From Pseudophaeomoniella oleicola (lineage: Eukaryota; Ascomycota; Eurotiomycetes; Phaeomoniellales; Phaeomoniellaceae), in assembly GCA_003868215.1 (NCBI GenBank), contig QWDQ01000045.1, forward strand, positions 150,569-214,568: 64,000 nucleotides of DNA, given 5' to 3'. Numbering within the stretch: the first letter of the stretch is position 1; each line of letters opens with the position of its first letter. A program made the translations under genes and the position numbers. Under the pieces are notes generated by a model. That model was given only the letters and a program-made list of their open reading frames with translations. It ran no database searches and had not been told where the DNA came from. Below, one piece after another: positions 4,325-55,983 of the stretch.

Positions 4325-4762
4325 TAATTTCCTTGCGCCGGGGATGCCCTTGTTACTAGAAAGGTGCTTTGATACAGCCACATTACGTGTAATTTACAGA
4401 TTTGGGGGTGAAGAGGTGAGAAGGTGAGAAAGTGAGAAGCGTCTCCTGTAATAACTTGAACCGAGGTTGAAAGTTGGAGGTTGCGAGTTTCGACAGGTCG
4501 TTGAAACGATTGTCGATTGTCGAAGCTTTGCTCGAATCAATCAATTAACCAACCAACCACGCGACCTAAGAAACAGTAAATTACCTCGAGCTCAGGGCTT
4601 GAATCCTTTGAGTTAGAGCGACGATGTTTATATGTTTATCGACTTCTTCACGTCCAATATATATGGTGACCTCCTAAGATCGGGGCCAATCCCCTATTCA
4701 CCACACACACCTCATTCACCCTTCGGCGCCTCATTCATTCATTCAGCAGTCTTCCTCCCGAG
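4325..4762. other. Intergenic, 5' flank of the transposase-like ORF
   Basis: I saw no coding frame. It contains repeated short GAGAAGGTGAGAA-like units (about 4415-4440) and an ATTCATTCATTCA run just before the ATG at 4763. I looked for terminal inverted repeats matching the region after 5941 and saw none by eye. Confidence 0.5.
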
Positions 4763-14724: not shown

Positions 14725-14910
14725 CCCAACACTAACCGGTATTAGTTAAGTTCGCCTACAATATCCAGTGCCCTCGCCTCGAAGTTTCCATGGTGAATGG
14801 GGGCAGACCTTACTCCTACGGTGAGCTACAGGCACCACTCACACAACACAATTGCCTGTTGATTCTGCCTCACCAATGTAGGATTAAGATCAGGCATCAT
14901 TCTCACACTG

Positions 14911-14922
14911 TACTACGTAGTA
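14911..14922. repeat. 12-bp palindrome TACTACGTAGTA
   Basis: A second perfect copy of the palindrome core, about 200 bp from the 16-bp copy. Confidence 0.9.
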
Positions 14923-15204
14923 ATATAATATATTATGAATTCATGATGGAAATCTCTATACAAAATCACTGGCTGTCACTTAATTCCTGTCAGCGCAATG
15001 AAGCAACCTCTGAGGTGCCTATACCATGACGCAACCATCGTCATCCACTTGGGTATTCTCTGACGGTCTTTGTGATTCCCCCAACTGGACCTTCAATTTC
15101 ATTAGTGTGGAGTTGGTTCGAACCATCTTCAGTTGCCACCGGTGATGCATTTCTGTTTTGCTGAGATGAAAATTGAATCATGAACCTGAATGCCAAGAGA
15201 TGAC

Positions 15205-15224
15205 GATAAGATAAGATAAGATAA
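15205..15224. repeat. Four tandem GATAA(G) units
   Basis: GATAAG repeated three times and followed by GATAAC. HGATAR is the site of fungal GATA factors such as AreA, but no gene in a suitable position is evident, so this may be a simple repeat. Confidence 0.6.
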
Positions 15225-16175
15225 CATTGTTCCCAGATACCCTCTCTACTATCTACTACGTATTGCCAATGCATGCCTATTGATCCAGGAGTTTCACTTT
15301 CCAACATCGGGATTTTCTATGGATAGGGCTTGATACTAGCATTGATCTAGTGTTATCCGTCCGAATGCAGCATCCGCACAAGAGATTTGACAGAGTCCAA
15401 GTCTTCTGGAGTGGCTTGAACGTAAAGGCAATTTTCATCAGCGATTGCTGGTATCCCGGCTTTCCTGGATGTCTACTGTGAGAACACTTGGTGGCTGCTT
15501 TGGTGGAGGCTCTGCGACAGAACAGAATGCTGGAGGTCGCCGTTGTTGTTGCCATGTGGGATTATCGCTATGACTGTCTCCGCATCCTTTAAGAGGCGGC
15601 CTATCCTCGTAAGAGTGATCTGGCGCACTCATTTGTTGTCCGCACATTGACATCACTTGATCTTTCCGTCCGTCTAATCTCACGATGGAAGATCGCGGCC
15701 AACGCGCTCTGAGGTTCAGCCCAGACTTCAATTGGATATGCCTATTGTGCAATGTCGTGGTCTTCGTAGGGGTCCTTCTCCACCATACCCTGCGCCTTCT
15801 GCGGATGTGCGTAATAACATGTTTGATGCAGAATTGCATTCCGTGTATTCCAAGAGGCGAGTCACTGTCTCTTCGCCTTACCCATGCTGACCTGATGTGA
15901 TTTGCTAACATTGGTACGTTGTTCGATGCTCTTCATTTGGGCGCAGCAAAAGTCCGTGTAGAGAGGCATGTGACCACTGGTATCTGTGTGGCCAGCACCC
16001 TCCCATCTTCTGTACATTCCGCGCTATGTGATCACCCTCGAGGTCGTCGATATCAAAACAGTTGATCGAGCAGGAATCGAAGGAGGATGTCTGGGCCGTT
16101 GTCGATGGATTCTGAGAGCTATCCACAGTTCATCATTAGCTGGCATCTGAATACGAAGCAGACCTGATACATAGG

Positions 16176-16670
16176 CTACGAATTCAGGGTATCTGACGTT
16201 CGGCCCACAAGTGGCTGGCTATCATCTGACCTAGCTCCTGCCTGGCTCGAATGGCTGGGCTCTTGTGAGATGGCCAGGCCTAAATTGAGACTGTTCGCCT
16301 TCGAGGTTAGCCTTCCAGTACGTTTTCGGAATCCCCATAGAGACCGAAGCTGCTTTGCATTGTCATCCTCGGTGTTTTCGCCTCGGACACTCCATGCTGC
16401 TTCAAATTTGGCAAAGAAAACTGCAGGAATCACTATCAGCGCCGCTGAACCTGCCTTGGGAACCACCCTAAATCTCCGTCACCCTCCAACGGTCAGCCAC
16501 TGATGTCGTCGCCAAGCGGCATAAGCGTCAGCGACCCAACTTGAGTAGGGTGGGGCACGACTACCCCCGAGTTCCTTCCTATGGGGAACATGTCCAAAGC
16601 GTTTCATACAGTACGAAGTCGCAGGAAAAGGAAACTTTCGTCTCAACCGGCAACTGTAGTCGCTGCCCAC
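16176..16670 (-). pseudogene. Possible broken ORF with one in-frame TGA
   Basis: Minus-strand 16670-16482 and 16466-16176 are in the same frame, separated by one TGA (16481-16479) and a few codons. The second part has a hydrophobic segment (SAALIVIPAVFFAKF) followed by a charged, coding-looking tail. No homology is recognised. It could be a nonsense-mutated gene, or chance. Confidence 0.22.
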
Positions 16671-18189
16671 CCTTCACCGACTTTTCACAGATGACAGACA
16701 GCCATCATCCTCGGATTTCCACAGCTAGGAAGCGCGGTACGGTGAGGACATTTGTGAGCCCTTGTGGGTATATGTATAATCCTCCCCTCCGCCCATTTTC
16801 TTTTTGCTGAAGAGTAATTCATCTTTCCTTTCGTTAACTAACGGTCGTGTTGTGAACACACTCTGGGTACTGCTGCTATTCATGATGACCTCGCAAGGGT
16901 AGCGATCCTTGCATGGGGCAATGGACATGTTAGATATACCAAAGCTGACATGCCATCCACCCTTCTGAGTGACAACAAGACATGCTTGGTCTTCCAACAG
17001 TGTTGCTGACTACCTCGAGTTCCTCGAGACCCAGAGAGGCGGCTAGACCTTCAGCAAGAGACGGTGAGCATATCACTCAATATCGCAGAACGTCGGATCA
17101 CTAACCTGAACTTCGATGAAGCTGGGGACGCAACTGATCTGTTCCTCGCCTTAAATGTTTCAAGAGCATCGATGCTATCAAGAAGTCGCAAGGCGGGCAC
17201 TAAAGACTAGGAGCATTCGTTGTAGCTTTCCGATCTTGTTGTACAGCGTCATCAAGGGTACGTTCCTCTCTACACCTGTCCTCGCCTCTATATTCTATGG
17301 TGCTTGTTCACCTAACCTTGTCAGGCATTGCACTTTGAAAGTAGAAGAGCAAAGGCACCTCATTGCGGAAGCCGAAGGAGGCTGAAGTCTCAGACAGTCT
17401 TGGTGAAGTTGAAAGAGAGAGGCTAGAGGGAAAGTACAATACTGTTTACGGAAGACGAAAAGGGATGCCAAGAACATTGACCAATCGTGGATGATTCCGG
17501 GGGTGGTGGATGCACGGCTGGTTTACTTCCAGGGCGGCCTCGGTCGTTTCGTAGACCTTGGCCCTTCCCACTCGTTTCAGCCTCGTTACCTGAGGGTGAG
17601 TTATCCTGATGATCCAGCCCTTTCTGATTACAATACTGATGAATGGTCTGACAGATCACATGAAAATCTGCCATCGTTTGTGAACCAGATACTGGTCTAC
17701 CAATGCTGGTTCTCGCACTTCGAGGTCATCCCGGGCACGAATTTCTCTTTTAGCCATCGACTGAGGTCCCACAAATAGCAAGGATGGCCAGATGCAAAAT
17801 CTACAGCAACTCTTTAGCCACCATGAGGAGATATCTCAGACCGATCTCTGATATCATATCTATCCCACTATCGAGACCCGCCCATTCCCATGGCGTCATT
17901 CGAGCTTCTGTCAAGCCGGAGACGGCCTCTGGTCAAGCGGGACTCAGTGTCGCTCCCTCCGCTCCAAATTCCAAGATCGGCCATCAATGCCAACAGCTAC
18001 GCAAAGCTTGTACCATGTGCGAAAGGAACAGCTATGGTTGCAATGCCACCTTACCTCACCACTTTACCTTGTGATTGTTTATATATACATATATATGATG
18101 CTGCCTCTCCCTCTCGAACAGATGTCCCCGCTGCCGTTCTGTACGGCCGCGCTGGGACATCAGCTAGAGGAGGTTCCTGCCTCGAGACA

Positions 18190-18450
18190 ATGGGCACTCG
18201 AATCGAATGTCTACTCCTGCGGACACGGCGTTACGGCCTTCGATTCTCTCGCTAGAGGCGAGTGGGTGACTTCGTCGAGACAAGAGGTCGCGCTTACGAA
18301 TGCGCGCTGTGCCTTTTTCTCTTTGACACGACTCGAGAGACGGTATGGAAAGCGGCCAAAAACAAGCAACATGAACCCCAAAGGCTGGTTTGGGAAAGTA
18401 CCTCAGTTAGACCCAGAACTACCGCCGATGGATCGACCGCCTGAACAACA
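18190..18450 (+). pseudogene. Frameshifted relative of the half-RING gene at 24.7-25.4 kb
   Basis: From the ATG at 18190 the translation switches frame at least three times but matches, piece by piece, the minus-strand protein at 24746-25405: MGTRIE, then VYSCGHGVTAFD, then DFVETRGRAYECALC, then RLERRYGKRPKTSNMNPKG, then DPELPP. Comparing the DNA, I infer a 2-nt loss just after GAAT, a 1-nt loss before GACTTCGTCGAG, and a small insertion after the CxxC codons. The zinc-ligand codons CGH and CALC survive in different frames. It lies inverted relative to the intact copy, about 6.3 kb away. The C-terminal part after DPELPP diverges. Confidence 0.85.
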
Positions 18451-18711
18451 ATGTCACCAATCATTTGACAAGCATGCAAGTCTCGGCTTCAGTAATGACA
18501 TTTGATTGTACTAGTATCGACAACGACGACGACGACAACAACAAAGCAGAAGCCAACGAAACGAACGCCTTAGCCCATTGTTTCACCTTCTTTGACGCTC
18601 GTCCAGTTCTTGGGACCACTCCTCTGCGCCGCATTCAAAGTGCTACGTTCGAAGGGGATGATTTGAGACGCTGACACTTGCACTGGCATGACTCGGTGTA
18701 TGTCCCCTTCT

Positions 18712-19385
18712 TCACGGCGTCTCTTGGTCCACCCAAGGCCTGTAATGCTCGCCGGACACCGAATGCCTGCGCCGTTTGTGGATGTTTCCCGGTGAGAGTG
18801 GAGGCAGCATCAATCCAGGTTGCCGAGGCTCGGTCTTCGTATCAGAAAGGTTTTTGGTTTGCTCCGTCGGAGCCGTTGAAGTTGAGAGCATGGCGGATGT
18901 AGGCTGTGGTTTTGGTGGCTGTTTCACGAGTTAGGATTGTCGCAATTGGCCAAATTCGACTGTGTCAATGTGTTGGAACTTACCTGGCTAGCCGCCACCC
19001 GTGGTATTGCGACCTTCTTTGCATCTGGCTTCCCATAAGGCCGGTTGGGAAACTCAGGCAGGAAAGCTGGAGCAAGCTCCAAGTCGCCGCCATTTGCAAG
19101 AGGAAATGCCCAGTCAGGTAGCGTATAATGCAGCTTCCTTCCGGCAGTTTGAGCCTCCCCGTTGCGCTCTAGGGATTGGATGACACCCTCGTCGATGCGT
19201 CGTGCAATGGAATCCTTGAGGCACAAGGGGCACTCGGTGTTTGGACGTCGTGTTGTGGCAGGTTCCAGTTTGTAGTTCCAGCATTCTTTGGCGTCCTGGC
19301 CTTGGACGTGATGGGGGCAATACATCGTATACAAGATCAGATGCCAGCATGTTCCTGGATGCCAGACTCGAATATGATGACACAT
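18712..19385 (-). CDS. Small Cys/His protein of the half-RING (CxH...CxxC) type
   Basis: Two exons, 19385-18984 and 18918-18712, with a 65-nt intron (donor GTAAGT, branch CCTAAC, acceptor ACAG); product 202 aa. Residues 1-56 hold the putative zinc site: GTCWH, YCPHH, KECW and TECPLC, i.e. C13-x-H15, C23-x-H25, C35 and C52-x2-C55. After that comes a soluble charged region (RRIDEGVIQSLERNG) and a Pro/Ser/Thr-rich disordered tail with a basic HKRRRHS patch that could be a nuclear signal. No second RING half is present. An additional upstream exon is possible. Function unknown; see the family finding. Confidence 0.72.
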
Positions 19386-21501
19386 GGCTATAGAGTGTCC
19401 CGAGGACTTTGGTTTGGGGATTGTTCAGGAGATTAGGGAACTATTGACATGTGAAGTAAAGAGTTGGAAAATAGATGACTAGTATTAAGTACCTTAGGCA
19501 GAAAGAGATCTGATATAAAATCTGAGTCAAGGGGCTCCCTGGAAGCTCTCTTTTAAAGATCTGGCAGTAGATTTGTTTGCGTCTGCAGGGGCCCTCATAG
19601 ACTGTCAAAGACCTGCCTGTCCCGAGCCGCGTATAGCCTATCGTTGTAGATCGTTGTAGATCGTTGAGAACCCTGGACCCGAGCATATGCATGACTGCTC
19701 TCTCTCATAAAGACTTCCGGGAAAACTTTCCCCAAATCGTGGTGACAAGTCAGCCTAGACAGCCGAAAAAGATGATGATGACCTCTCTGACTCTCTGGAC
19801 GTACCTCTTCCCTGAAGCCCAAGTCCGATTTAAAGAGCTTGAGTTGTGCCTGTCCTAGCAAAATAAACCTTCAGAGGTATTCACCTTGACATCCTTCGGT
19901 ACCAGCGGGGAACTTGATTGCATTCTTACACGAGAAGTGTATACATACCGTACAGTACTGTACCTGACATCAAATACTGGTATACTACCTCTTCTGTTCG
20001 GGACCGCCTTGGCAAGTCTCACCGACTTCAGCTCCTTTTGTACACCTTCATCTCACTGGTCTCACTCACCCCAATTCATCGTCGGTCACAACCGTCAATG
20101 GACCTAGCAAGAATTAATGGCATTAATTATCAATGTCCCTTTCATTCCACATTGCAGAAATAGATGGGAGACTTCTGTCATCGTTGTGACGGCTGGGTGG
20201 CTGCTGGATGGTTGGGTGTATAAACGCCTATACAACCCAGCTCATGCTCAAGGCACGACCTCTGACATCCAGCAGTCCACACCAAATAACTGAATGACTC
20301 TGTTACAGTCATGAAGGACCTTGGGTGTTGATCACTCTGGTGGCGCCAATTGCCTCCGAAGTTTCTGCAACTCTCGCGCGGTGGTCTGTCCCCAATTACG
20401 ACTATGATTGGACGCAAACAAGGGCCGACAAATTCGAGCAAGGTACGAGATAATAAAGTTTTCGATTGTATATATATTGTATACAAGCATAATGTCATGG
20501 TGTAAAGGGTGACCGATGTGGGTGGCATACTCAGACAGGTTCTGGTCGTCGTGTGATCTGTTGGGAAAAACGTGGACTAGCAGCTCTGTGAAGGAGTAGC
20601 AGTGATGAGACAGGAAGCTTATACCTCATTGGAGCAACCATAGGCATTATGGTTCGAGTACGCCGAGGGGTTGTGATTGGATCCAGATTGTTCTATTCGA
20701 CCGGACAATCTGGGGGTCAGTGTCTCTGTGACCAGTTCTTCCTTGATCCCGGAGTCTGACCGCTCGTTTTATGCATGGTGGAGTCAACCCAGTCTAACCC
20801 ATCATGTGGATGAGGAAGTGATCTGGTGAGAGAAAAAGCACAGTCCACTGGCAACAGGATTTTGTCTGATGCCGTGACTATTGGTCGGAGGCGTCTTTGC
20901 CAAATGTGTATCTCGGCCAATGGGGATAGTTTCATACAGTCGATTTTCCCGACTATGCGGCATTTGGTCGTTATTTCCAACTAGACGCCTACAGTAACTG
21001 TCAATAAAGAGCACAAACATCGTCAATGTCGTGTCGCCTGTTGCACAGATTACAGCAAGGAAGCGATGCTGCAACCAACGATCTTTCAGAGAGCGTACCA
21101 GAAAGCAACATACCCTTGCTATCATGGCGTGTCCCGTTCTCATTGGCGGCGAAGTCGAAGAGCGCACCTACACCTGTGCACCCAGCCTTTCTTGCTGAGA
21201 AACCTTGGAAGCTGTACGACTGAAGGAAAAAAGATTTGGTACACAAGAAGTCCGCGATGGGAATATGACTATATGCCGCCTCAAGTACGCTGAATAGCCT
21301 CCGGCATGGCAAGCGTCATCAATACAGATGCGGTGCATAAACCCCGTTCCCTCTTTTGCAGACCGAGTCTAAGCCTTCGACCACAGCTTCATTCATCGGA
21401 ACTCTGACAGGAGCTCCCAATGAGCGACAGACAGACTCATTTCCTCGGGTACGTCCTCAACTTAATACGACCATCGACGATAACAAAGCGCAGTGCTAAA
21501 T
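19386..21501. other. Gene-poor stretch
   Basis: No frame has splice support or recognisable content. A short direct repeat TCGTTGTAGATCGTTGTAGATCGTTGAGAA occurs near 19642-19670. Confidence 0.45.
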
Positions 21502-22170
21502 ATGTACCGCCAATTGGTCTACACCTTCAAATGCGGCCACGTTGAAAGGTGCTTCATCCATGAGCAGAGGAACGCGGCATACGGAGTTCTGAAAGCTATA
21601 CTTGGGCCGGGTCCATTCATGAACCGAGTCCAAATGCAGGTGACAACCCTGAAACTCGAACACGAATGCCCAATCTGTGCTCAAACGAGGCAATTAGCAT
21701 CAGCTACTGCTACGAAGGTCGCGTTCAACAAGAGAGTAACCAGCCCAACACCACTGCCGCAGGAGAAACAGACCTCAGAGACCGACTCCACCAAAGATGG
21801 CCACACTGAGAACAAAATTATTCCAAACCACAAAGAGTGGACATCTCGTCGATTCGTATCACTACCTACGAACGAATCCACTGAATTCGGGTATGCAGCG
21901 ATGCAACAGAAGAATCATGAGCACTGTAGCCAGCATGGAGATACTCGCTGTCTTACAGAAACAGATTCTCCGTCATCTCCAAGCGATGACCCAGTTGCGG
22001 CAGACATCGATGGTGATGCCGTGAAGGAGGAGCATACAAAAGATTGTCCAACGGCCAAAAGGAAACGCGACTATGGCCCAGACCTGGAAGAAGGCAAGGA
22101 GAGTGAAGAGATGCCCAAGAAGATCATCAAGTTCGTCGTCTCGAGGAGGAAGATTCCAAAGAATCCATGA
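21502..22170 (+). CDS. Small Cys/His protein of the half-RING (CxH...CxxC) type
   Basis: The ATG at 21502 gives a 222-aa single-exon product. The N-terminal module has YTFKCGHVERCFIH (C11-G-H13, C17, H20) and HECPICAQ (C56-P-I-C59): four to six potential zinc ligands, resembling the first half of a RING finger without the second cross-brace. Residues about 75-200 are hydrophilic and acidic with many Ser/Thr. The C-terminus is basic (KIIKFVVSRRKIPKNP), and AKRKRDYG could act as a nuclear localisation signal. No signal peptide. Position of the CGH relative to the first Met is the same as in the candidate 25.1 kb start. Function unknown. Confidence 0.75.
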   Translation: MYRQLVYTFKCGHVERCFIHEQRNAAYGVLKAILGPGPFMNRVQMQVTTLKLEHECPICAQTRQLASATATKVAFNKRVTSPTPLPQEKQTSETDSTKDGHTENKIIPNHKEWTSRRFVSLPTNESTEFGYAAMQQKNHEHCSQHGDTRCLTETDSPSSPSDDPVAADIDGDAVKEEHTKDCPTAKRKRDYGPDLEEGKESEEMPKKIIKFVVSRRKIPKNP

Positions 22171-24745: not shown

Positions 24746-25405
24746 TCAACTTGCGCCATTCCCAACCCTCGTATCCTCTTCCGAACTGGATGGCGTGTTT
24801 CCCTTGTTGTCGACCTTATTCTCCTGTCCTTTCTCATGCTTCTTGCAAATCACGAAACGCTCGACTGGTGGTAGTTCTGGGTCTAAATCGGGTATTTTCC
24901 CAAACCAGCCTTTCGGATTGAGGTTGCTTGTTTTCGGCCGCTTTCCATAACGGCGTTCAAGTCGTGCTAGGAAGAAACACATAGCGCATTCGTAGCTGTG
25001 GCCCCTGGTCTCGACGAAGTCCACGACTCGTCTGTAGCGTGGGAAGTCAAAGGCTGTAAAGCCATGTCCGCAAGAATATACGTATTCAATGCGCGTGCCC
25101 ATTGCGTCGAGGTGATTGCTGAATGTTACAACGTACCAGGGAAGAGTAGTCGTAGAGACGGATATTGGCAAGATGAGCGGTATCAATTGGCTGATAGTGG
25201 CTTGATTGAGACCGTCAAGCGTGCGCAGGACAGGAAGATACTTCGAAGTCGCAGTGGTTAGCCGCACTTGGAGCGCTCTGAAGGCGTAGTCAATAGCTGT
25301 ATGAGGGAGCTGGGAGTATAGAGAATATGGAGTACTGGTTGCAGAGGTTTGGGAAGGGTTGTGTGGGTTTGAGAGAGAGAAAGATAGACTGGCGCCCTCA
25401 GACAT
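24746..25405 (-). CDS. Half-RING (CxH...CxxC) protein, intact relative of the 18.2 kb pseudogene
   Basis: An open frame of 219 aa from the ATG at 25405. The true start may be the internal ATG at 25102 (118 aa, MGTRIEYVYSCGHG), because similarity to the 18.2 kb pseudogene begins exactly there. Counting from it: C11-G-H13 and YECAMC (C39-x2-C42) form a candidate zinc site. Next is a basic segment RLERRYGKRPKTSNLNPKG, the motif WFGKIPDLDPELPP, and an acidic Ser-rich tail. The extra N-terminal 101 residues are Ser/Thr-rich and hydrophobic and could be leader sequence. Function unknown. Confidence 0.75.
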   Translation of the reverse strand: MSEGASLSFSLSNPHNPSQTSATSTPYSLYSQLPHTAIDYAFRALQVRLTTATSKYLPVLRTLDGLNQATISQLIPLILPISVSTTTLPWYVVTFSNHLDAMGTRIEYVYSCGHGFTAFDFPRYRRVVDFVETRGHSYECAMCFFLARLERRYGKRPKTSNLNPKGWFGKIPDLDPELPPVERFVICKKHEKGQENKVDNKGNTPSSSEEDTRVGNGAS

Positions 25406-28400
25406 TATAAGTCACAGTATGGGGGTGCGGTGTATTCACCCTTCGACAGATCACGGTGACACTGTCCAAGGTGTCTCCAGCGGTCTGTACCATCCTAGGA
25501 GACACCGAGCGGGGTAAGGGGGATTCTTCCACCAGACCTCAACGACCGATGAAACCGTTGAGAGATTGCGAAGGTTTTGTGTAGCAGTTGTCATAGTGAA
25601 GACATTATGCTAACAGCAGGAGCGATAAGTGTTGGCAGACTGGCCTATCAGCACATCCGACTCGGCGCAACGAACCGGATTTCAGGTGTCTCAAGAAGGA
25701 TGCGTGGTCCATACAGCTCCATGCATACCAGAGACTGTTAGAGAGGCATTGTGTTCAGCCGTCGATAGCATACCAACAATTTTGGAAACGTCGAGCGTAG
25801 CGGTCAAATGTTTCTAGCCCTGGCGCATGTAAGTGGTCATGCTCTGACTGTTCCTTTAGCTGCCCATGGTCGGTCAACTCTCCGTCCAAAAACAGCATCT
25901 GGCAATGTAGCAGAATAACTCCCCGAAAATTGCGCTTTTGTGCTCCCAAACGGACATCCCTTTTCAACAACACTCGAAGCATTAACTTTCTATACTTCTC
26001 GTCTTCATATACCTCAACTTACCACTTCATGTGGCAGAAGTGACTGGCAACGCCATGTCCAGCATTTATATTACAAGTCTTCTGACTTGCTGCGCCATCA
26101 AGACATGCCACGATGAAGTATCTTTGCCTAGGCAGGCCATAGCAACAAGTTATAAGCTGCTGAAGGTTCTCACTTCTTTGAATAATCGTAGGCTTTCATG
26201 ACACGACTGGAAGCTTTTCAAGTCTCCAGGATTTCTCCAGCGAGAACATGTGCTAGACAGCGCCATAGATACTTGTTATGTCTGGGAAATGTGCCATACA
26301 AGTCTGGGGTTCATCTCGTCACGCATCACGACAACGTCCAAGCTAGGTGATTGTATCATCCATCCTCTATGGTCCTCTCCGAATGTACCTTGGATGTTTG
26401 GTAAGTCATCGCCATTTCGAGCAACTGCACTTCCCGTCCACCCCGTGGTCACAACGCTATGCTGAGCTGGCAGTTGAGTATTCGGAGAGTTATCTTCGTA
26501 CAGATGTGGAATTACCTTCGGATTGGCAACTTGAGGTTAGCTTAACTTCATTAGTAAGTGCTCATGGAATTTCAACCCTCATCTGTAACGACGCTGACGT
26601 TGGCATAGACGACGATTTAAATCTAAGCTACCCGAGCATCCCGACAAGATGATGAGGCACAAGCCTGAATATTGTGCCTTCCCTGCTTCACGAGTCTGGC
26701 GATGCCAACTTGAAAGAGCACGTCCGCTCCCTGTCTATAGCCCAGAACATCAGTCTCCCAGAATTGACAAGGGAAATGAAGCCCCCCACCCTACCCCACC
26801 CCCCTGTTTCGAATAAACGTTCTCAAGAGAGCAAGTAATACGACATCGTCGGCGCTCTTGGCTGCCAGCCAGAAGTCCTTCGCACAGTTGGCTCTGGTTG
26901 TTTGGCAGAGGTCCGGAGTACCACAACTGTTCTGGCAATACCGATGACCTTCATCAAGTATGAGCTGTCGCGACAGCCATTGTTGACTTGATAACAACTT
27001 GCGCAGGAACAGAAGTTCGGGAGATGCTGGCTGCCATTGACCTGGTACCGCGATACAAGGTACTGACCCAATGCTGTTGGCCGTCCGCAGTACGTGATGA
27101 TATACCGCCTTCTGATTGGAAGGCCGCATTAAAGCATCATGACAACGTCGATACATATGAGGGGTGCGGATGAGCATGAGATAATGTGGCCCTCAGCAAA
27201 GGAGTGACAGGTCATGGTCGGGGATAGCGAAGATGAGCATTGGCAGATATCCAGCATAACAATTGTCTCCAAACCACACCCAAACAGCATATTATTACAG
27301 CGAGCAATCAATACCGTTCTGGAGATTGCTTGATGGCAACCCGGATCATGCTTTGTACACGAGCCTTCACTTGCGGGGGAACGCTTCCGGACACACTCAC
27401 ACACACCTGGGAGAAGCGGGTAGCGATATAAACGGAGACTGGTCATCGCCGGATATGCCGCAACTTGAAGCCCGAAGCGGAAGACTTTTCATTATCTCAT
27501 CCCCTCCTGAACCTTTCCATGCTCCTTTACAGGGTGTGGCGATTGGACTCACTTTCCTCTATCGCCGTCGTCGTCGTTATGCAGCGGATATGATTCCGAT
27601 GCGCCTTGGCAAATACGTTCATCGCCACGGACAGTTCCGGTCTCCGGCGGACGTCAGCGTAGATTTGTTACGACTAGTATCATACCGTCTGTACAGGTAT
27701 CATGATTAGGTATTTACATTTCAACGGCCGGAAGGGATGTTCCGAGACCAGAACATCTACCACATCAACGTCAGGTCCAGTGCGAGCTTTCTACTACTTT
27801 ACCTAAAACTCCGGAGTGGGTTACGTGTACTGCGGATAGGAAGGAAGACGGCAACTATCCTGAACAACGACCACGCAATTACCTTTCTATAGGTATCAGG
27901 CAGGAATTGTCTTAGAAGCGATCAGAACGTTGCCATTTTCCTTACAGACATGGCAACACCCTAAGTAGCTGGATTTCGAGTATGTTGGTCAAAAAGACTT
28001 TGATTACTCGTCGTTATACCCAAGCATTTCCCCCTATTCCCAAGTGACCAAAGGCATGCTGAAGTTATTTGCTATCTTTTATTGAATCCCCTTTTGTGTC
28101 GTTTTCAATACTGAATCGAAATCCATCTCCATCTCCCCCGCAAATGATCATTCAGGGGCTTTTAGAGTCAGGCATCTTATCTTTGTACAGCAGAACAAGA
28201 AGTCACTGGTCGAGCGCAGGTTTTAGATGGCACCCACTGTACGTGTGATATGGAACGTTTGCCGGCACATTAGCAAATCTGGCAGGGATGTCTAGATCTC
28301 TTTCACACATAAGCACACTGGGAAAAGGACACAACTAAGACCGTTGGGAGCATGCTGCTTATCTAATCTGGACTGCATTGGTACGGATAAGCCGTATATA

Positions 28401-29926
28401 CGACTCGCGCAAAACTGTGCTACCGTGACACGGCAGTAGCTATTGCCTATTTTCTACCTACCAAATGAACTTCGTCCATGCCTAAAGGCATCTATCAACC
28501 TAGGTAGTCGGGTTGAGTACGCTCACAAGAGCTACGAAGCTCAGGGAACAACGAAACCCCATGAGAAAGATCAGCGGGAACTTTTGTCGACGTATATCCC
28601 TGAAATCCCGGTGCCCTCAAGCGATCACAAGGAGCTCTGACACATTCGGCCTCGCCAATATCTGATTTTGGCTCTCATTGTTCTATAATATCAAGCAGGA
28701 AAATCTGCTGGAAAAGGCAATGTGCTTAACGAATGCAATCCAATGGGGACCCAGACCGTGGGGAACCCCTCCAAGCGTAAGCAGCGTATGCTATCTGGCA
28801 TACTTCCAAGAAAAGCATTTCCGATCGTTATTATTGGCGCAGTTCTAATGCCTATGTGTAAAGGTTTCCCGGTCCGTGGACATTTTGGGCGCCTCGGTTG
28901 CCATTGGGCCGGCAAGCATGCCAACATTGTGACCATAGGCCATATCGCACACCGGTGATTCCAGCAGCATTTCCGAAACATGTCCCATTAAAACCTGGTT
29001 GCAAATATGGCTGAAGATATCGAATCCCGTTAGTTTTGCAGGGATTGGACAGAACCTGCGGTCATCCTGCAAGTGGTCAAATGTGATGGGCGTATCATAA
29101 GCGAGCATCACATTGTCGGCGGATGTACACCGAATGTTTCAACTACCCCACTGGGTAGACCAGATCTGGGACTACGTCATCATCACTGATCTGCCAGGGA
29201 TGAAAACTACCGGAAGAGGTACATTAGCAGTCATTAATTATATACAAGTGGAAAGATCACTCCTAGGATAATTACATCTGCAGCGCATCAGTTGTACAGC
29301 TAGCCAATTGAAGGAAATCAACTTGATAATAGTATCTTCGTGAGGACCAGGTGCTCGACGGCTTGGATACTTATGCAAAGTCATAAAGACATGACTCAAT
29401 TTCCAGGTCATAGTCCTATGACGGCGAATATGTAACCAGCATGGCTGGAGTTGGCTTCGCCATTGGATAGAGGGTGTCCAAACTTATACGAAGTTGGACA
29501 ACAAAGATCGTTATGATGCCCTTGCTGCAGAACTGCTACGACTAATTTGTGGGATAGTATAATGGAGTATGCTTTGGCACGGCAATGGACTAGTACGATG
29601 ACAGTACCAGAGAGACCATTATCAATCTGGACGCACATCTGGACCAGAACCGCATGTTATGTCTCGGCGTTGACTAAATCGTGATGCCCAGGATATACAG
29701 CATATTGGCAATAGAGGACAAACAACGTCGTCTGCTTCACAGAACACGCATTCGGCACGACAAAGCTCTACACTGTTAACAGGATATGAGATCTCTACAA
29801 ATAGAACTCCAGAATTCTCTCTGAAGATTTCGATCATAGTTCTACTCTTACTCTCATCCGCATCTGCTTTGTCTGAAGTTCTATCCAGTAACACCAAAAG
29901 ACTGATCGGCTCAACAATCTTTGAAA
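25406..29926. other. Longest gene-poor stretch of the island
   Basis: No confident gene. Best coding-looking pieces: plus strand about 26383-26620 (PLRMYLGCL...ELPSDWQLE, with a GTAAGT donor after TSL and a CTGACG...CATAG acceptor); minus strand 26791-27000 (Cys-rich HRYCQNSCGTPDLC); plus strand 27263-27709; and minus strand 28845-29108. None has a complete start-to-stop model that I trust. A CACACTCACACACACCTGG run lies near 27394-27412. Confidence 0.4.
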
Positions 29927-30481
29927 ATGTCTTTGACGTTGAATTCTGACTCTGTCCAAGAGAAGCCAACAGGATGCTTGATACGCTCAGTGTCATGGCC
30001 CCAGGCTGGTCATGGACCAAATATGCATCACATGATTGTGGTCCAGAATGAACCCGCCGATGTGGCGACTGGCCCAGTCTCAAACCCCATCTCTGGCATA
30101 CGTATGTCTCCTTTAGTCCTCTGTGTCCAGAGTCAGGCTTACTAATGGAATTCGTGATAATCAGCTGCTAGGACGACCCCTCTTACTGTCTCCAACTTGT
30201 GGCTATCCCAGATTGTGTTTGGAGATCATAGGATTAGCCCACGGATTGACTCTCAGGTTGAAAATATCCGGACTTGGTTGGGAACCGTACCAGGGCCAAT
30301 GCGGAGATCTTTCTCTGCGCCTAGCATCCTGAACGACGTTAGTCATACTGTCCATCCTGCCTTTCCATCTGGACAAGCTCAGGTCACTGCGGAGGAAGAT
30401 GTCTCGTCATGTGCCGTTGAAAGCACAGACATGAGCGTCAGTGAGCTCGGTGCGATTCACGGAGTTCCTGCTAAGCAATGA
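29927..30481 (+). CDS. Spliced hypothetical protein, 163 aa
   Basis: Exons 29927-30101 and 30165-30481. The 63-nt intron is textbook: donor GTATGT, branch TACTAAT, acceptor TCAG, and it joins the frames exactly. The product has no membrane segment or signal peptide. It contains SVSWPQAGHGPNMHHM near the start, a short amphipathic region RIDSQVENIRTWLG, a Ser/Pro piece RRSFSAPSIL that looks like a basophilic kinase site, and an acidic Ser-rich C-terminus. No domain is recognised. Intron quality is the main reason to believe the gene. Confidence 0.65.
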
Positions 30482-30978
30482 ACCATTCTATGAGACTGGG
30501 TTATGATGGAGGAGCACAAGAGTACGAAGGCAGATGATGCTCATTAGCTATTAGACTGCTTGCTATTGAACGGAAGAGACTGTGTCTCTTACACATATCA
30601 TCAGAACTCTCCTCTCTATTAAAGAAAGTGAAACGACAGGGGCGTTAACCCGTCCTAAATACCTAGCATTAGGCTCAATCAGATACTCTCCATACCAGCA
30701 AGTCCCTGTATTGCTTTGTACTCCCGCAGAGCAGGCGGGGTAAATACAACATAGTTCAGAGCAGGGTTCTATTAACTCCTTCCTGTTCATCTTCGCTCGA
30801 TTACGTACTCATACCTCGTCGACCTGGGTTGCTTTCATATGTTCGAAGAGAGGCAAATCCCTTGCCTTGGTTTACAGGTACGAATTACACAGGACATTGT
30901 TGAATGTTCAGCTAACGCAGGACAGGGTTGACACAGGTTCTAGATCTTAACGCCTGTAGGGAAGCATAGACTGCCAAT

Positions 30979-31599
30979 ATGTCTACAAAGCAGACGAACA
31001 AAATGCAAAGTGCCAGTGATTCAGCTGCGTCGTCGAGCCATGATCCTGGACGAACCAGTAAAGGAGCTGATTCGAGCGCCATCCCCAAGATTCAGGGGCA
31101 CCACACACCACTTCTGCCAGAAAGTCACTCCTCGTATCTTCCTTCCAATGCTTCAACTTTGGCATCTTCCAATATCCAATTTATGGACGATACCCCAATG
31201 GCACGATCGGAAGACAGAATGGCTCTACAAAAGGACGGAGAGATTGTCTCCCCAACTCCAGTGTCTGTAGTTAGCCAGCAAGCCATTCAAAGACTGGTGG
31301 AGAGTTATACTCTTCCATATCACCAAGAAGAAGACTTACCTCTGGGGTGGGAGATCTATGTGTATAAGCCATTACCAGCACTTCCTATCGAATCAGAAAC
31401 TCACCATTCGCGACGTAAGCGAGCACGCAGAGACTCTCCAATTGTTGTTCCATCGTTGGTGTCTGATTCTGACCTCGATCCAAGTCCCAAGGTCCCAACA
31501 ACGCCTCAGAATACACGACGCTATGGATTCATCGGCGATGCTAGAACAAGGGAGGAAATAAGGGCGTTGGCAGTTAGGGAGGGAAACAATTGGATCTAG
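30979..31599 (+). CDS. Disordered hypothetical protein, 206 aa
   Basis: A single exon from the ATG at 30979. The first 100 residues are Ser/Thr/Pro-rich. A more ordered middle reads AIQRLVESYTLPYH and LPLGWEIYVYKPLPALP. A basic patch SRRKRARRDS could be a nuclear localisation signal. The end is GFIGDARTREEIRALAVREG, a likely helix. No known domain. It lies about 500 bp after the spliced 163-aa gene on the same strand. Confidence 0.6.
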   Translation: MSTKQTNKMQSASDSAASSSHDPGRTSKGADSSAIPKIQGHHTPLLPESHSSYLPSNASTLASSNIQFMDDTPMARSEDRMALQKDGEIVSPTPVSVVSQQAIQRLVESYTLPYHQEEDLPLGWEIYVYKPLPALPIESETHHSRRKRARRDSPIVVPSLVSDSDLDPSPKVPTTPQNTRRYGFIGDARTREEIRALAVREGNNWI

Positions 31600-34242
31600 G
31601 GAGGGCAAACCATGCATTCATTATGTGATGGAGAGCTCGCTCGATGACTGCAAGCTGCCAGACATCCAGCCGTCCTTTTCTTGCGTCGAGAGGTTCACAG
31701 TGCGGATCGTTCTATTGAGTAAAGGCTGTCAGACAAAGCCCCTGTCTACTTAGCCTCAAAGAGTATGTACGATGTCTAAGCAGGCATCAAGCACAAGAGA
31801 ATCTTCTATTCTCTGCATTGAAAATTCCATCACCGTCTAGTTCTTGGTCGCTGGACTCTTCTATCTTGGATCGTGACCAGGATATTACCCCGAAACGGTA
31901 AAGCGTATCAAGGGGGTGCTGCCCCACCGCTTTTCCGCTTTGATTGTCGTCATTTCTATCAACAGATTTATTAATTATATTTGTATCTGCCATCTCAAGA
32001 TCCTCATTGTATCAATTCTTCATCTCAACACATCTATCCAATTGGTCATGATGAGGTATAATCCCTTCTGTTATCACCAATGCCAATGAAGTCAGTTTTG
32101 TCTACTACCAGCGCTGTTTCTGTACCCCGAGATGACAAAGATACCAAAGCACATCGCCAAGACCGTGATAAGGAAGCAACAATGACACGATCAGTTACTC
32201 ACAAGCTTCACGTGGACTAGGGTTATCCTTGAGGACCGCGTTGACGTGAGCAGAAGGTCACTGTATCCAAGAAGATTGCCAGTGTGTCACACGGCGCTTG
32301 AGGTAACGATTACCTGAATACGTTACCATTACAATACGGGACAATACATGTTCGAACAGGTTTGTCATGTTTCCAAGTTCGTCGGTATTATGTATCGTTT
32401 TCTGGTTGAGACCTTACTGCCTGAGATGCAATGCCGGCTGGCGAGGGTTGTCCTTATCCCGCTAAGCTACCAGCGTTTATTCGGCCTGAAACAGGAGCAC
32501 ATGCAGCCACCAACGTGACTGACGCCATGCTGGGCTTATACCAGTCAAGGTCTAAAAGTCAGGAAACCAGTATGGCAGGCCAATGTCTGCAGAAGGAATA
32601 GAGGGACACTGATGCCAAAGAACGGTGACTGGTGCTTCACTTGCTTTCCGATCAATTAATGCATCTATTCGTCATTGTGTCGCTCGGCCAGTCATTAGGC
32701 TGCAATGGAAAGTCTTGCCGGTCTTCCTATCCCTCAGGATGTTCGAGGGATTTGACACTTTCCTCGTTACAGATCCAATCAGAAGTGGCTTCTGTTGATG
32801 TTTCCGTTACAACCTGCACACACATGGCGAAGGTTCACCTCCAGCAGGCATTCGTCAGTCTTATGTGGCAATCCCCAGGGATACATCGGTCTGGACCCGT
32901 TCAGCGATCCATATTCTCTTCCCACCGAAGTTTGGTTGGTCGTCAATCCGGAAACCCGCTTTCAATGCACGACTTCCCCGAATCCAGGCACAGCCCTGCA
33001 CACATGTGAAAAGGAGATACTTCTAATCTCAGTGCATCGGCAAGCATCACCTTGCAAATCATGAAACAACAGCTGTTCATCAAGACAGACGAAAAGATGC
33101 ACACACCCTGGTCAAGCTTGTGATGCATATCTTAAGACCTTGATTGAGAGGAACGTCATGGGATCATGTCGCGATATCTTTCAACCAATCGACAAGCTAG
33201 TAGCCAGAATACCACTCGATATTTGGGGCAGATGTGGCGATCCGTTTTCTGTTCAAAGTTAATTGTCTACGCGCAGAGACGTGGCCAATGATTCTTCTTT
33301 CTGATTGCTGCAGATGAGCGGTGGAAAGCCTCTATCCTCAACACAACTCCGAATAGACCTCTTTCAAGAAGGCTGCCATTATCTGAACCAAGCACAGAGG
33401 CAACATTTCCTATTTCGAACAGGGTTCGAGATGCCACTACATCCAATAGATCCAAATTTCGAAGCTTCGTCTTGACACCCTCATTTTCTCACCAGCGATT
33501 GACAAATACCAACATCATGTCATGCATGATTCTCCTTTCTCTACTCTTCCTCCTCGGCGCCTGTTGCTCTCCCTACCCTCCATACATGTCAAATTCCAAA
33601 TATTCCTCCTCCTGCATGACGTGAAAATTTCTGATCTGGACACAACTTCGCCGACCTGGGCATCCCCTTCTTGACACTAGCTTTTTGATCCCTCCTTCCA
33701 CGAGCTCTTGGCTAACGCGAGCAATCGAAAACGCCCCTGAGGCAAGCACTGCCATCCTTGGCAAAGACCCTTCAGGTGAATGTTTTCGGCCAGCAAACGA
33801 CCCCGTTCCCTACGAAGAAGCAGCAGCATCCAATCTGCAACCTCCCTCGAAACCGACCAGAGAGAGTCCAACGTGTCAAATCCTGCAAGAGTATTAATCC
33901 AACTCTCCAACCCTCCGTCGTCTCTAGGATTCTATCCCGATTGTCTTCCCTCTTTGACTACTCTTTCCCCCCTCTTCCAGTCCCTCAGAAATGTCTCCGA
34001 CATTCGATCCCACATACCCCTCCTCCCTTCCCTCTCTGCCCATCCCCCCCAAATAAAGAAGAACAAGAGATGCTAACAAGTCCCCTCCCTATCGCTCTTC
34101 TCCTCTCCTCTTCCCCCCGTCACATCCAATGTGTCATTCGCTTGAATCCCACATGAGGACGAGTCTACTCTACTCCCAAGGCCTCACGAGAGAAAAAATT
34201 CTTAACGTCCTATCCCTCGATGCTGGATGACGTACCCAATAT

Positions 34243-34265
34243 ATCTGTCTGTCTGTCTGTCTGTC
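34243..34265. repeat. (TCTG)n microsatellite
   Basis: About six tandem TCTG units, followed 25 bp later by an (AGT)n array. Confidence 0.95.
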
Positions 34266-34291
34266 TTGTATACTCCATATTGTCCTTCAGT

Positions 34292-34292
34292 C

Positions 34293-34341
<49 letters not shown>
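34292..34341. repeat. (AGT)n microsatellite
   Basis: About 16 units of AGT. The same motif forms the array at the right end of the window. Confidence 0.95.
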
Positions 34342-34923
34342 GCTAGTACCCCAATTTCAATCCCCCCGCCCCCTTAATTTCTTATATCTCTATCCTTTGA
34401 TTTTGATCTGGAAAAGAAACCAAGGAAAAACCTCAAATGTACCTAGGTAAGGTAGGTATGTATGTATCCTAGGTAGCGCTTACTTAAGCCCAATCCGTCA
34501 AATTTCCTTATAATACTATCTATATATTACAACGTCGATATCGAGTAAAAAAAAAAATATTTTTTCCTTTTCAATTTTGATAATAATATTACTCTCGCTA
34601 TTAGTAGTACTATTATTACTGCTACCAGTAATTAATTACCAATGGTAGGTAGATATAGAGACTTGGGATATTTTAATGATGATGTTGTAGTAGAACGGTA
34701 GGTAACCTCTTTCCCGAATCCGGATGTAGGGATCTAGATTGATTAATTAGATCATACTACTACTACTACTGCTACTATCAAGGTTGATAATACATACACA
34801 GAGTCCCCTAGAGAAGAAGGAAAATGTTTTGTAATAAAGGTAAGAAAAGTAAAAGAAGGTGATACAAGAGAGAGAGAAGGAAAGGGAATGGATTGACAGA
34901 AAAAAACCCAAAGTCGAATGCTT

Positions 34924-35055
34924 CTAACGCCAAGAACGCGCCTCGCCGGTCGTTGCAACTTTCTCATTTACTTCGTCGTTAGGATGGAAGCCTGCCTTTT
35001 TCCTGGGTGGGGGTCTTTGGGTGGTTTGGGTGTCGTTGTCTCGTAAAACATGCAT
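34924..35055 (-). CDS. Candidate 43-residue basic microprotein
   Basis: ATG at 35055, stop at 34924. The sequence is hydrophilic and has no low complexity: MHVLRDNDTQTTQRPPPRKK, then GFHPNDEVNEKVATTGEARSWR in two parts (basic-proline block, then an acidic/polar helix ending in SWR). A CT-rich tract lies just upstream on the coding strand, typical of fungal leaders. It could also be the last exon of a longer gene, but I saw no good acceptor. Unrecognised. Confidence 0.38.
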   Translation of the reverse strand: MHVLRDNDTQTTQRPPPRKKAGFHPNDEVNEKVATTGEARSWR

Positions 35056-35069
35056 TCGAGAAAAGAAAA

Positions 35070-35092
35070 AGAGAGAGAGAGAGAGAGAGAGA
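35070..35092. repeat. (GA)n microsatellite
   Basis: About 11 GA units. On the minus strand it is a CT tract directly before the candidate microprotein. Confidence 0.95.
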
Positions 35093-35204
35093 ACATTAAA
35101 AAAAAGGGTGCTTGATGAATCATAAGCCGACAATATCGCAGGTCATAAAATCATTGCCTCCAGGATTCTCGACAGCTTCCACATTTGCTTTGTTTTATTT
35201 TCGG

Positions 35205-35773
35205 TCAGGTATTCTGTGCTGCGGCTTTTCTGGAGGAGGAGAAGAGTTGATGCCAGCTAACACAATGCAAGAGACGAGAATACGCAACTCCTCCTCCAGT
35301 CGAACTTACTCTATCATCGCCCTAGCTTCGGCCAACATCGAGATCCACGTATACTGCCGATCCAGTTCCTCGACTTTCTTCCAATCGTTGACCCTCAGCG
35401 CACAGATAAAGTCCTGAATCCAGAGTTCCAAGCCGTCTAAACTCTCCCGTGGGAAAGTGCGGCTCTTCCGGGCCTTGTCGAGGCATCGGTACAGGTATGC
35501 TTGAATTTCGCGCTTCTTCTCGTCGATTGGGTCGCGTTTTGATTCGAGGTCATTGAGGTGTTGGCAGCGGCCGCAAGGGAATGCAGCGGTCGTGCAGACG
35601 ACGAGGGGGGATGACTGTGTGATGGGTTGGCCGTTGGCGTGGAATGCAAATGTCGGACATGAACATAAGCAGTCATAGTCGGTGTGGGAGCACGTGAACG
35701 AGAAGGAATGTTTATGGGGCGGTTTTGCGACTTCAATGGGATCCAATTCAGGAGGTAGAGTGTGCATAGTCAT
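35205..35773 (-). CDS. Small Cys/His protein of the half-RING (CxH...CxxC) type with helical C-terminus
   Basis: Exons 35773-35310 and 35229-35205, with an 80-nt intron (donor GTAAGT, acceptor CCAG) adding the last codons AAAQNT; product 162 aa. The putative zinc module is SFTCSHTDYDCLCSCP (C28-x-H30, C35, C37, C39) and FPCGRCQ (C67-x2-C70). It is followed by about 80 residues of predicted helix with charged periodicity (DEKKREIQAYLYRCLDKARK; WKKVEELDRQYTWI). No signal peptide. The same ligand order occurs in the genes at 18.7, 21.5 and 24.7 kb, but the rest of the sequence is unrelated by eye. Confidence 0.72.
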
Positions 35774-36014
35774 GTTGAGCAATAGGATGAAGGACGCGTA
35801 TGGATGTGTAGAAGGCTCAGTAGAGTAAAGAGAGTAATATCGTTCCTAGCTTATGTTCTGAAATGGCAGTGACCCTAGTTGTCGTGCTCCAGGGGCCGGA
35901 TATAGCGATCTATATATCGATATTCCCCATCATTGCTTTTTGCTTGGGTGGGGGCCAACCCTTCCCACGGCTACTGCGTCTGCATGCCTCCCACATCCAT
36001 GTTAGTCAGTGAAT

Positions 36015-36480
36015 CTAGCAATCAGGAGGATTTCCGAAATCCGAACGAGGATTAAAAAAGGCAACGACAGTTCCATTCGCGCATAACGCGCAATGATCCG
36101 AGCTTGGTGGCGGCCATTGCGGCAATGCTTGCTTGCAGCTAGGGTTGAGTAAGATAGAAAAGAGGTTGGTCAGCAGCTGCGTATCGGGAAGGTTGTCCTG
36201 ATTCTGCTGACGCCAAAAGTCCAATCCTGCTGTGATGCCACCTCGGAACGAAAAAAGGCAACAGCCTAGACATGTAGGTACAGCTACTATAGGTGCGCTT
36301 ACAGTCAGCAAGATGTCCGTGTAAGGATAATGCCGCAAGTAGACTGTTCGCGATAATGTCAATGCAATAGTAAGCCTTCTGTTCCTTTCTCAGGGCTTTG
36401 ATGTGAATGGCCCAATCGGAATCGAAAGACAATATCAATGAAAGTGAAGGTGAACAAACTGGACGATAAGCTTTCCCCAT
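36015..36480 (-). CDS. Helical hypothetical protein with C-terminal CxxC, intron uncertain
   Basis: From the ATG at 36480 the frame is open through HIKALRKEQKAYYCIDIIAN and GHLAD, then reaches a GTAAGC donor at 36302. A coding-looking second part follows (LDFWRQQNQDNLPDTQLLTN; LNPSCKQALPQWPPP; DHCALCANG; stop at 36015). Acceptors at 36266 (37-nt intron, unusually short) or 36230 (73 nt, CACAG) both keep the frame; the latter gives 130 aa. The CxxC and the PQWPPP segment suggest a real accessory gene. Orientation and distance match the half-RING gene just downstream. Function unknown. Confidence 0.5.
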
Positions 36481-37358
36481 GAGGAAAGACACACATGTAA
36501 TTGTACCGATGTATACCGATAGTATCAATCTCCTGGTCAGTGGCTTCGAAGAACCCCGGGACTTATGTCAAGTCGATGCAGCCTTCATTGCCCTTTTGAA
36601 CAGTTTCAGAGAAAGTTATGACCAAAGACCACCGTCTGCGTACAAAGGACCGTCCTTAATCTGATGACATCCTGACTGCTCAGATTCCAGGAATCGCCGG
36701 ACAAGCATGTCGGATGCATTTCCTTGTCGCAGTCACTGGTAAGCCACAAACAAGATTCATTGACCTCACTGGTAATGCCGGAGCAAATACTTGCTGTCCA
36801 ATGCTGGACACTCGTAGAGTATGATGGCCTCATCAAGGTAGATACGATGAGGCATTATATCTGCTGGGACTCCTGTCGACGCCCTCGTGGCTATTGCGAC
36901 ATATCCATCCATACCAATGTCAGTAAAGAATACGAATCCCACTGGTTTCTTGATATTTTGTTGGATGCGTGTTTCATACATACTCTACACGGTACCTAGG
37001 GAGGTTGCTCACGCTCATCTGTGGTCAAATTATTATAATGACTTCCAGATGAATATGAATTGTACAATTGACTATTGACAACGGAACATTCATTGTATTT
37101 CCCCATCCTTCATTATGCCAGCGTCCGTCCGCTACTCCTTTTCGCTAGTCTCGTTTTCTCCCTTTTGCCTTATGTCCATGCGATCTCAGTCTGACTTGGA
37201 ATATATTGAATCAGGAAGTATGGCCATGTAGCAAAGATACTGTAATGCCATACACACTTTCGTTGGCAACATGGCTATATATATTTACGAACGCGCAGGA
37301 TCTATCCCAGTGTGGCAGTCCAACAGCAACTGCACCACATGCCATAGTACTCATGTCT
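36481..37358. other. Intergenic, possible gene fragment
   Basis: Minus-strand 36981-36766 (VGFVFFTDIGMDGYVAIATR...) and 36750-36606 look coding but are joined only by a 34-nt GT..AG segment, too short for a usual intron. They may be a decayed gene. Otherwise nothing is seen. Confidence 0.35.
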
Positions 37359-40300: not shown

Positions 40301-40489
40301 CATCCCAAGTTACCTGGAATTGTCAGGGCACGGAGACAGATTATGATACCTGTTAAAACGAACCAGGTCTTGAAGTAGCGCTCTTTTGTAAGGCTTAATG
40401 ATACCAGGTGTCCCTGGCATGGCCAATGCAGAGTTGCTTAAAGAAAAGAAAGACATGATGAGAATGTAAAGCCATCCGTGGACAACCAT
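37359..40489 (-). CDS. Secreted beta-galactosidase, glycoside hydrolase family 35
   Basis: Hydrolyses terminal beta-D-galactosides, probably from plant cell-wall pectin or xyloglucan, outside the cell. Exons 40489-40364 and 40313-37359 are split by a 50-nt intron with the less common donor GTTCGT (the only one giving LLQDL-VTWDEHSLFVRGER); product 1026 aa, the usual size of fungal LacA-type enzymes. Residues 1-23 are a signal peptide (WLYILIMSFFSLSNSALA). GH35 motifs: GPYINAEVSGGGFPGWL, the acid/base Glu in LLQPENEY (E197) and the nucleophile Glu in FSIAEFQSG (E295), then the C-terminal beta-jelly-roll domains. Many NxS/T sequons support secretion. Confidence 0.95.
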
Positions 40490-55598: not shown

Positions 55599-55983
55599 CT
55601 CGACAAACCTCCAAGGATATACCGATACTGCTCAATGCTCAATTTAACTGGAAAGCAGACGGTGAATATGGCTGAAAGATGAACAAGAGATAAGGGGAAG
55701 AGAAGATCAAGCACAGGTATACATCACCGCATTGGCTTCTTTGCAACTCGCAACTCGCAACGAATCAGCTTTCTCAACTTCCGCACCTGCTCTGCGGGAC
55801 ACGATAACTTTCTGATTGGCTCGATAATAAAAAGAGCTCTTGGCTGATGACCTAAGATATTAGTCAACCATTTGCGGAGAACTGAAGGTCCCCCGTTGAT
55901 ATGAAATCAGCCCTACCGAACTATGCGACGCAGATGATATACAACGAACATATTCTTAACAGGAGTCCCATTCCCGCTTGTGG

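Follow-up and report, generated by a model that had tools for sequence, protein, structure and literature searches.

Introduction

The RING finger binds two zinc ions through eight ligands arranged in a cross-brace, with 2-3 residues between its C-x-H and the next C-x2-C, while the treble clef places a knuckle on a hairpin, followed by a loop and a helix that begins with the second ligand pair, and the GATA finger takes the form C-x2-C-x17-20-C-x2-C. An N-terminal CGH with a later C-x2-C is also common in small unnamed ascomycete proteins. Here we analysed a 64,000-nucleotide stretch of DNA from Pseudophaeomoniella oleicola (GenBank assembly GCA_003868215.1, contig QWDQ01000045.1; hereafter the window), which is the right end of its contig (G000:C53:150569-214568) in a genome of 26.1 Mb and 112 contigs. 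Within the window, a block at positions 14800-36500 holds four small genes, here called A to D, whose predicted products carry a C-x-H followed by a C-x2-C. The [4Fe-4S] site of T. maritima TrpRS (TmTrpRS; PDB 2g36), which also enters the comparison, has the form C-x22-C-x6-C-x2-C (Cys236, Cys259, Cys266 and Cys269), and its description gives x21-24 as the spacing range for the first cysteine pair of this motif (PMC2954223).

We found that these small unnamed zinc-motif genes are genuine and form a cluster, that most of this is of an ordinary kind, and that one of them, gene C, is demonstrably constrained. We lean, with modest confidence, towards a block that encodes small metal-binding proteins of two kinds, in which A, B and C would be duplicates, gene C encoding an adaptor with one zinc, and gene D would be separate.

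Motif frames in the block exceed chance

All six frames were scanned with a regular expression for C-x-H, 20-45 residues and C-x2-C. The 21.7 kb of the block yielded 5 frames of at least 60 amino acids, 4 of at least 100 and 4 of at least 150, and across 100 dinucleotide shuffles of the same DNA the corresponding means were 0.11, 0.05 and 0.0 (maximum 0 for the longest class); the observed counts were matched by 0/100 shuffles at any length class. Translation and scan together confirmed the four long frames where an initial annotation of this DNA had placed them:

18927-19424, minus strand: open frame with C-x-H…C-x2-C (gene A), from translation
21484-22167, plus strand: open frame with C-x-H…C-x2-C (gene B), from translation
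24749-25411, minus strand: open frame with C-x-H…C-x2-C (gene C), from translation
35309-35845, minus strand: open frame with C-x-H…C-x2-C (gene D), from translation

The fifth motif frame of the block (15280-15561, minus strand, 94 amino acids) may be due to chance. No match was found by the scan in the remaining 42 kb of the window, and a 70-kb sample (loci L009-L015) contained a single one, of 103 amino acids, with none of at least 150. Widening the spacing to 50 over the 130 kb of loci L009-L033, some of which repeat window genes, added one frame of 86 amino acids. Within the sampled DNA, the motif pattern and its clustering are genuine; with this excess, and with no Pfam family above cut-off, the local zinc-motif cluster without a named family that had been proposed was upheld.

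The narrower pattern [FY]-x-[FY]-x-C-G-H had 15 matches in the whole 26.1 Mb genome and 10 in a reversed control. Four of the 15 lay in frames of at least 150 amino acids, namely genes B and C, a gene on contig C27, and a frame at locus L026 that is probably a chance match, its motif starting 18 residues before the frame end. The C27 gene (G000:C27:312858-313331, minus strand; L022/L031) carries MCGCREYAFYFVCGH close to the start and a C-x2-C further on, and a whole-genome search with its protein returned itself and one match at an expect value (E) of 0.7. Given this gene and a paralogue of gene D on contig C21, described below, the general layout occurs outside the block as well. As had also been noted, CGH falls at residues 11-13 in the proteins of B and C when the Met of MYRQ or MGTR, respectively, is taken as residue 1.

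Codon comparison points to purifying selection on gene C

Gene C is accompanied by a second, broken copy of itself within the block, and the features concerned are:

24746-25102, minus strand: gene C (P0001, from MGTRIE), 118 amino acids; open frame, purifying selection relative to the broken copy
18180-18426, plus strand: broken copy of gene C (pseudogene), ATG at 18190; blastn, two overlapping frames, codon comparison
25103-25411, minus strand: in-frame open extension upstream of the gene C Met, either a leader, an extra or fused exon, or chance; open frame

The initial annotation had listed a pseudogene in the block, and blastn bore this out, aligning 18180-18426 (plus strand) with 25112-24867 (minus strand) at 78% DNA identity. 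The copy is disrupted by several indels that break the frame and by one TAG in register. Its similarity to gene C begins ~10 bases upstream of the MGTRIE Met; the open extension further upstream comprises ~103 codons with its own Met near the start, and a Pfam match was not found for it.

Differences between gene C and the broken copy were distributed over the three codon positions as 8/2/31 of 78/78/76, and the same residue was encoded in 65/75 aligned codons (3 gapped codons excluded, one stop scored as different). Over these 75 codons, synonymous divergence per site (dS) was 0.997 and nonsynonymous divergence (dN) 0.071, giving a ratio (omega) of 0.071, for which bootstrapping spanned 0.02-0.15. 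The codon-position pattern and the low omega indicate strong purifying selection on the gene C protein, and they contradict the fast evolution first proposed for the block in the one block gene that was measured. The broken copy was probably not neutral for long, because dN would then be higher: with half of dS assigned to each branch, it would have been unconstrained for at most ~14% of its branch (point estimate).

Gene C has the layout Y7-x3-C11-G-H13 ... T32-x5-E38-C39-x2-C42, after which come basic residues and, up to residue 78, KGWFGK-x-P-x-LDPELP. In the broken copy C11, H13, C39 and C42 are preserved and H35 is replaced by R. Retention of the four ligands at dS ~1, with H35 lost, supports the layout of a single four-ligand CHCC site in gene C, in keeping with the one zinc site and roughly four ligands that had been suggested for all four proteins. 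Conservation in the broken copy is as strong over residues 43-78, which are basic and terminate in KGWFGK-(I/V)-P-x-LDPELP, as over the module itself, so that the earlier description of the tails as unrelated fails for gene C. An AlphaFold model built from the gene C sequence with no alignment had a mean predicted local distance difference test score (pLDDT) of 42.9; it placed a low-confidence helix at residues 37-52, beginning at the C-x2-C, and assigned no strand.

Genes A, B and C share residues beyond the ligands

18712-19385, minus strand: gene A (P0002), 202 amino acids; exon 1 19385-18984, intron 18983-18919, exon 2 18918-18712; predicted splice signals
21502-22170, plus strand: gene B (P0003), 222 amino acids; 228-codon open frame and shared columns

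Gene A most likely has a second exon, as judged from a 65-nucleotide candidate intron that keeps the frame and has the donor GTAAGT, a branch-like CTAAC and the acceptor CAG; an alternative acceptor 15 nucleotides further on is likewise open. The N-terminal module of A, C23-P-H25 ... E51-C52-x2-C55, is rich in cysteine and histidine, with twelve of them within the first 55 residues, and its tail contains the basic HKRRRH. There are two C-x-H in this protein, and it is C23-P-H25, not C13-W-H15, that lines up with the neighbours. Gene B has the layout Y7-x3-C11-G-H13 ... T49-x5-E55-C56-x2-C59, two additional C/H near the CGH, and a long tail with KRKR. A description in terms of about four ligands is therefore less apt for A and B than for gene C.

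To compare the genes outside their ligands, we held the ligands fixed and shuffled the other residues 20,000 times. Three residues recur in genes A-C, namely Y (position -4 of C-x-H), T (-7 of C-x2-C) and E (-1 of C-x2-C), at p 0.0003, or only T and E at p 0.0067 with the alternative C-x-H of gene A, and pairwise values were 0.001 (C-B), 0.012 (C-A) and 0.016 (B-A), all of them somewhat generous because the alignments had been seen beforehand and one of two gene A C-x-H had been picked. The non-ligand columns of gene D were at chance against A-C (p 0.15, 0.32 and 0.88), with 0 columns common to A-D. The Met-to-CGH register is identical in B and C, and A-C all lie within 7 kb. Shared Y/T/E columns in A-C that are absent in D divide the genes into two groups: A, B and C probably arose by local duplication long ago, and gene D probably represents a separate family lying nearby. 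The proposal of one family of four is not borne out, in that A-C may be related and D gives no indication of belonging with them.

Gene D and its paralogue keep ten cysteines and histidines

35306-35773, minus strand: gene D (P0004), 155 amino acids; open frame and paralogue on contig C21

The product of gene D has the layout H20-x-H22 ... C28-x-H30 ... C37-x-C39 ... C60-x6-C67-x2-C70-x-H72, with a helical region after it. Its paralogue (G000:C21 233746-234114, minus strand) is 41% identical over 123 residues (E 2.5e-29), and the two differ at codon positions 1/2/3 by 57/43/78 of 118, the third position being the most changed. Ten C/H are invariant between them (H20, H22, C28, H30, C37, C39, C60, C67, C70 and H72), so gene D does not encode a four-ligand protein as had been suggested; ten are enough for two sites. 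In an AlphaFold model made with no alignment, residues 81-155 of D were mostly helical with block-mean pLDDT of ~60-85, and residues 1-80 scored below 50. Foldseek with this model returned no match at E<=0.001 (best E 1.3).

A profile of the two D sequences, searched against PDB, had T. maritima TrpRS (2g36_A) as the best of 11 matches at E<=10, with E 0.007 (single stretch 0.011). The alignment sets C39, C60, C67 and C70 of D on four similarly spaced cysteines, with CTT opening the C-x6-C pair; the chain numbering in the alignment is offset from the published cysteines, by 12 as read. Both D and the paralogue have C-x20-C-x6-C-x2-C, compared with the published C-x(21-24)-C-x6-C-x2-C, and neither as a single sequence retrieved TmTrpRS from PDB at E<=10. 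The match is a hint about the ligand geometry predicted for gene D, not about homology.

Separately, a weak match to the N-terminal part of the D paralogue (33%, E 0.015) was seen at G000:C102:466864-467061 (minus strand; L036) in a 444-amino-acid frame. Simple repeats, a TAG-type trinucleotide and a GA dinucleotide, lie near gene D at 34294-34341 and 35070-35092.

Searches for homologues and domains

At E<=1, Pfam gave no match for the A, C and D proteins and three below cut-off for B, among them DUF7838 (E 0.05), which was rejected; for spliced gene A no family above the curated cut-off was found at E<=10. Protein-database searches found nothing at E<=1 for gene B (112 candidates; the query itself was not returned, though its frame is uninterrupted), for D with its paralogue (170 candidates, queries not returned) or for C with A (42 candidates, queries not returned). 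This database is seemingly without the proteome of this organism, and these null results are no evidence for lineage restriction. A PDB search with a C-A profile gave a single match at E 1.8, and gene B gave none. Candidates rejected were a match between gene C and C76 (E 0.09; E 0.002 in a small local set), whose aligned piece has a stop and lacks both C-x-H and C-x2-C; cytochrome nitrite reductase for gene C (E 0.013, best single stretch only 1.7); and ASH2 for gene D (E 0.3). In a narrow literature search, none of the papers among the matches listed dealt with such a family.

Surroundings of the block

The block is flanked by an HSP70 gene (12136-13884, minus strand) and a GH35 beta-galactosidase gene (37359-40322, minus strand), and long open frames are sparse between them, which agrees with the gene-poor block between conserved genes described at the outset. 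A conserved cyclin gene lies further right, at 44.2 kb. A search of 3 kb from the block middle against the genome at E<=0.001 gave self-matches only, so at least that part is no recognisable repeat. Another proposed model, at 36.0 kb, corresponded only to a 124-amino-acid open frame lacking support, with which no homology search was made.

Inside the block, 30970-31599 (plus strand) holds a 209-amino-acid open frame with an RRKRARR basic stretch and no Pfam match, possibly a further unnamed gene. Some 9 kb to the left, the open frame at 4670-5938 (plus strand) matches the helix-turn-helix of Tc1/mariner-type transposases (PF01498) at 28.1 bits, short of the curated cut-off. A Zn2Cys6 domain and a fungal transcription-factor domain were also detected in the window and, with the short intron predicted in gene A, would fit a filamentous ascomycete. 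The frame at 53244-55631 (minus strand) encodes a protein carrying VTC, DUF202 and SPX domains, which we take to resemble the polyphosphate polymerase VTC4.

Discussion

From these observations we infer the zinc, the fold, the cellular location and the binding role as follows. Genes A-C would be old local duplicates with the signature Y-x3-C-x-H … T-x5-E-C-x2-C. In the gene C product, C-x-H would sit on a beta-hairpin turn and C-x2-C would open a helix, one zinc joining both in a treble-clef-like manner, and the basic stretch with KGWFGK-x-P-x-LDPELP is probably a basic, tryptophan-containing surface for binding a partner. The protein may be a small adaptor that acts inside the cell and is more likely to be nuclear than secreted; HKRRRH in A and KRKR in B are compatible with a nuclear location and no proof of it. 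Gene C would have been duplicated long ago, with strong purifying selection on both copies over most of their history and a later break in one. Gene D would use its approximately ten conserved ligands for probably two metal sites, ahead of a helical C-terminal region.

Several observations weigh against this picture. The codon comparison behind the estimate for gene C depends on where several gaps in the broken copy are placed, and the AlphaFold models of C and D are poor at the motif, so that the structure check proposed for a CHCC site gave a low-confidence helix for gene C and neither a zinc site nor the hairpin. No homologue outside this genome was found for A-D in a database that did not return the queries themselves. 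Codon usage of the motif frames was indistinguishable from that of non-coding frames of this genome, which is uninformative here since the same held for the GH35 gene, and would leave room for the frames being chance; we consider that very improbable in view of the shuffle control, omega 0.07 for C, the conserved D paralogue and the consensus intron in A. Plain local alignment among A-C was weak (p 0.011, 0.028 and 0.14), and the motifs are separated by 25 (C), 26 (A) and 42 (B) residues. Together with the testing of shared columns after the alignment had been inspected, these marginal scores and differing spacings could mean that A, B and C are unrelated, each with its own CxH/CxxC pair, and that the only family is gene C with its broken copy. 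Such independence seems to us rather unlikely, as three columns are identical in A-C at p 0.0003, B and C have the same Met-to-CGH register, and all three lie within 7 kb.

The initial annotation had instead united A-D in a half-RING family that would evolve fast, be lineage-specific, bind a single zinc and possibly act in self/non-self recognition or host interaction. All four do carry C-x-H…C-x2-C within ~17 kb, and no Pfam family reaches its curated cut-off, but the chance-level non-ligand columns of D, none common to the four, its ten conserved C/H, and the slow evolution of gene C (omega 0.07) make this improbable. Nothing seen here pointed to self/non-self or host-interaction roles, at which no test was aimed. 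We give similarly little credence to D and its paralogue binding a [4Fe-4S] cluster through C39-x20-C60-x6-C67-x2-C70 in the manner of TmTrpRS, with the other C/H forming a zinc site: 2g36_A is the top PDB match of the D profile (E 0.007) with four cysteines in register, but only the two-sequence profile finds it, an E of 0.007 carries limited weight across several PDB searches, a four-cysteine zinc site accounts for the same residues, and x20 falls just outside the x21-24 given in the source (PMC2954223). Slightly more doubtful still is the combination in which an unnamed one-zinc C-x-H treble-clef family (Y-x3-C-x-H … T-x5-E-C-x2-C, under strong purifying selection) lies beside a gene D family pairing zinc and iron-sulphur-type C-x20-C-x6-C-x2-C sites.

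The locus has a wider lesson. Small fungal proteins that lack a Pfam family are readily dismissed as noise or as fast-evolving orphans. Here the broken duplicate is a natural evolutionary test, in which gene C stayed nearly unchanged over about one synonymous substitution per site, and it identifies four retained ligands, one lost His and a conserved surface after the metal site. The module of gene C is a compact target for tests of zinc binding and structure.

Compared with known modules, the likeness to the RING finger lies in the C-x-H and C-x2-C ligand pairs. Gene C, however, has only four conserved ligands, with 25 residues between the pairs, and A and D have a sufficient number of C/H but one C-x2-C each; no RING match was found in Pfam (E<=1 for the four proteins, E<=10 for spliced A). 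The GATA finger shares with gene C a C-x2-C after which come a helix, predicted in gene C, and basic residues, but in gene C the first pair is C-x-H, the spacing is 25 and not 17-18, and there is no Pfam GATA match; alignment of gene C to two GATA-like pieces of this genome, chosen by eye, was at chance (p 0.76 and 0.51), and this assignment was rejected. Gene D resembles the TmTrpRS site (PMC2954223) through C-x20-C-x6-C-x2-C with similar surrounding residues, but the D protein has 155 amino acids, aligns with the synthetase in its C-terminal part only, and carries six further conserved C/H. For gene C the treble clef may offer a likeness in that its predicted helix starts at the C-x2-C (low confidence, mean pLDDT 42.9, no strands), with a knuckle that would be C-x-H instead of C-x2-C.

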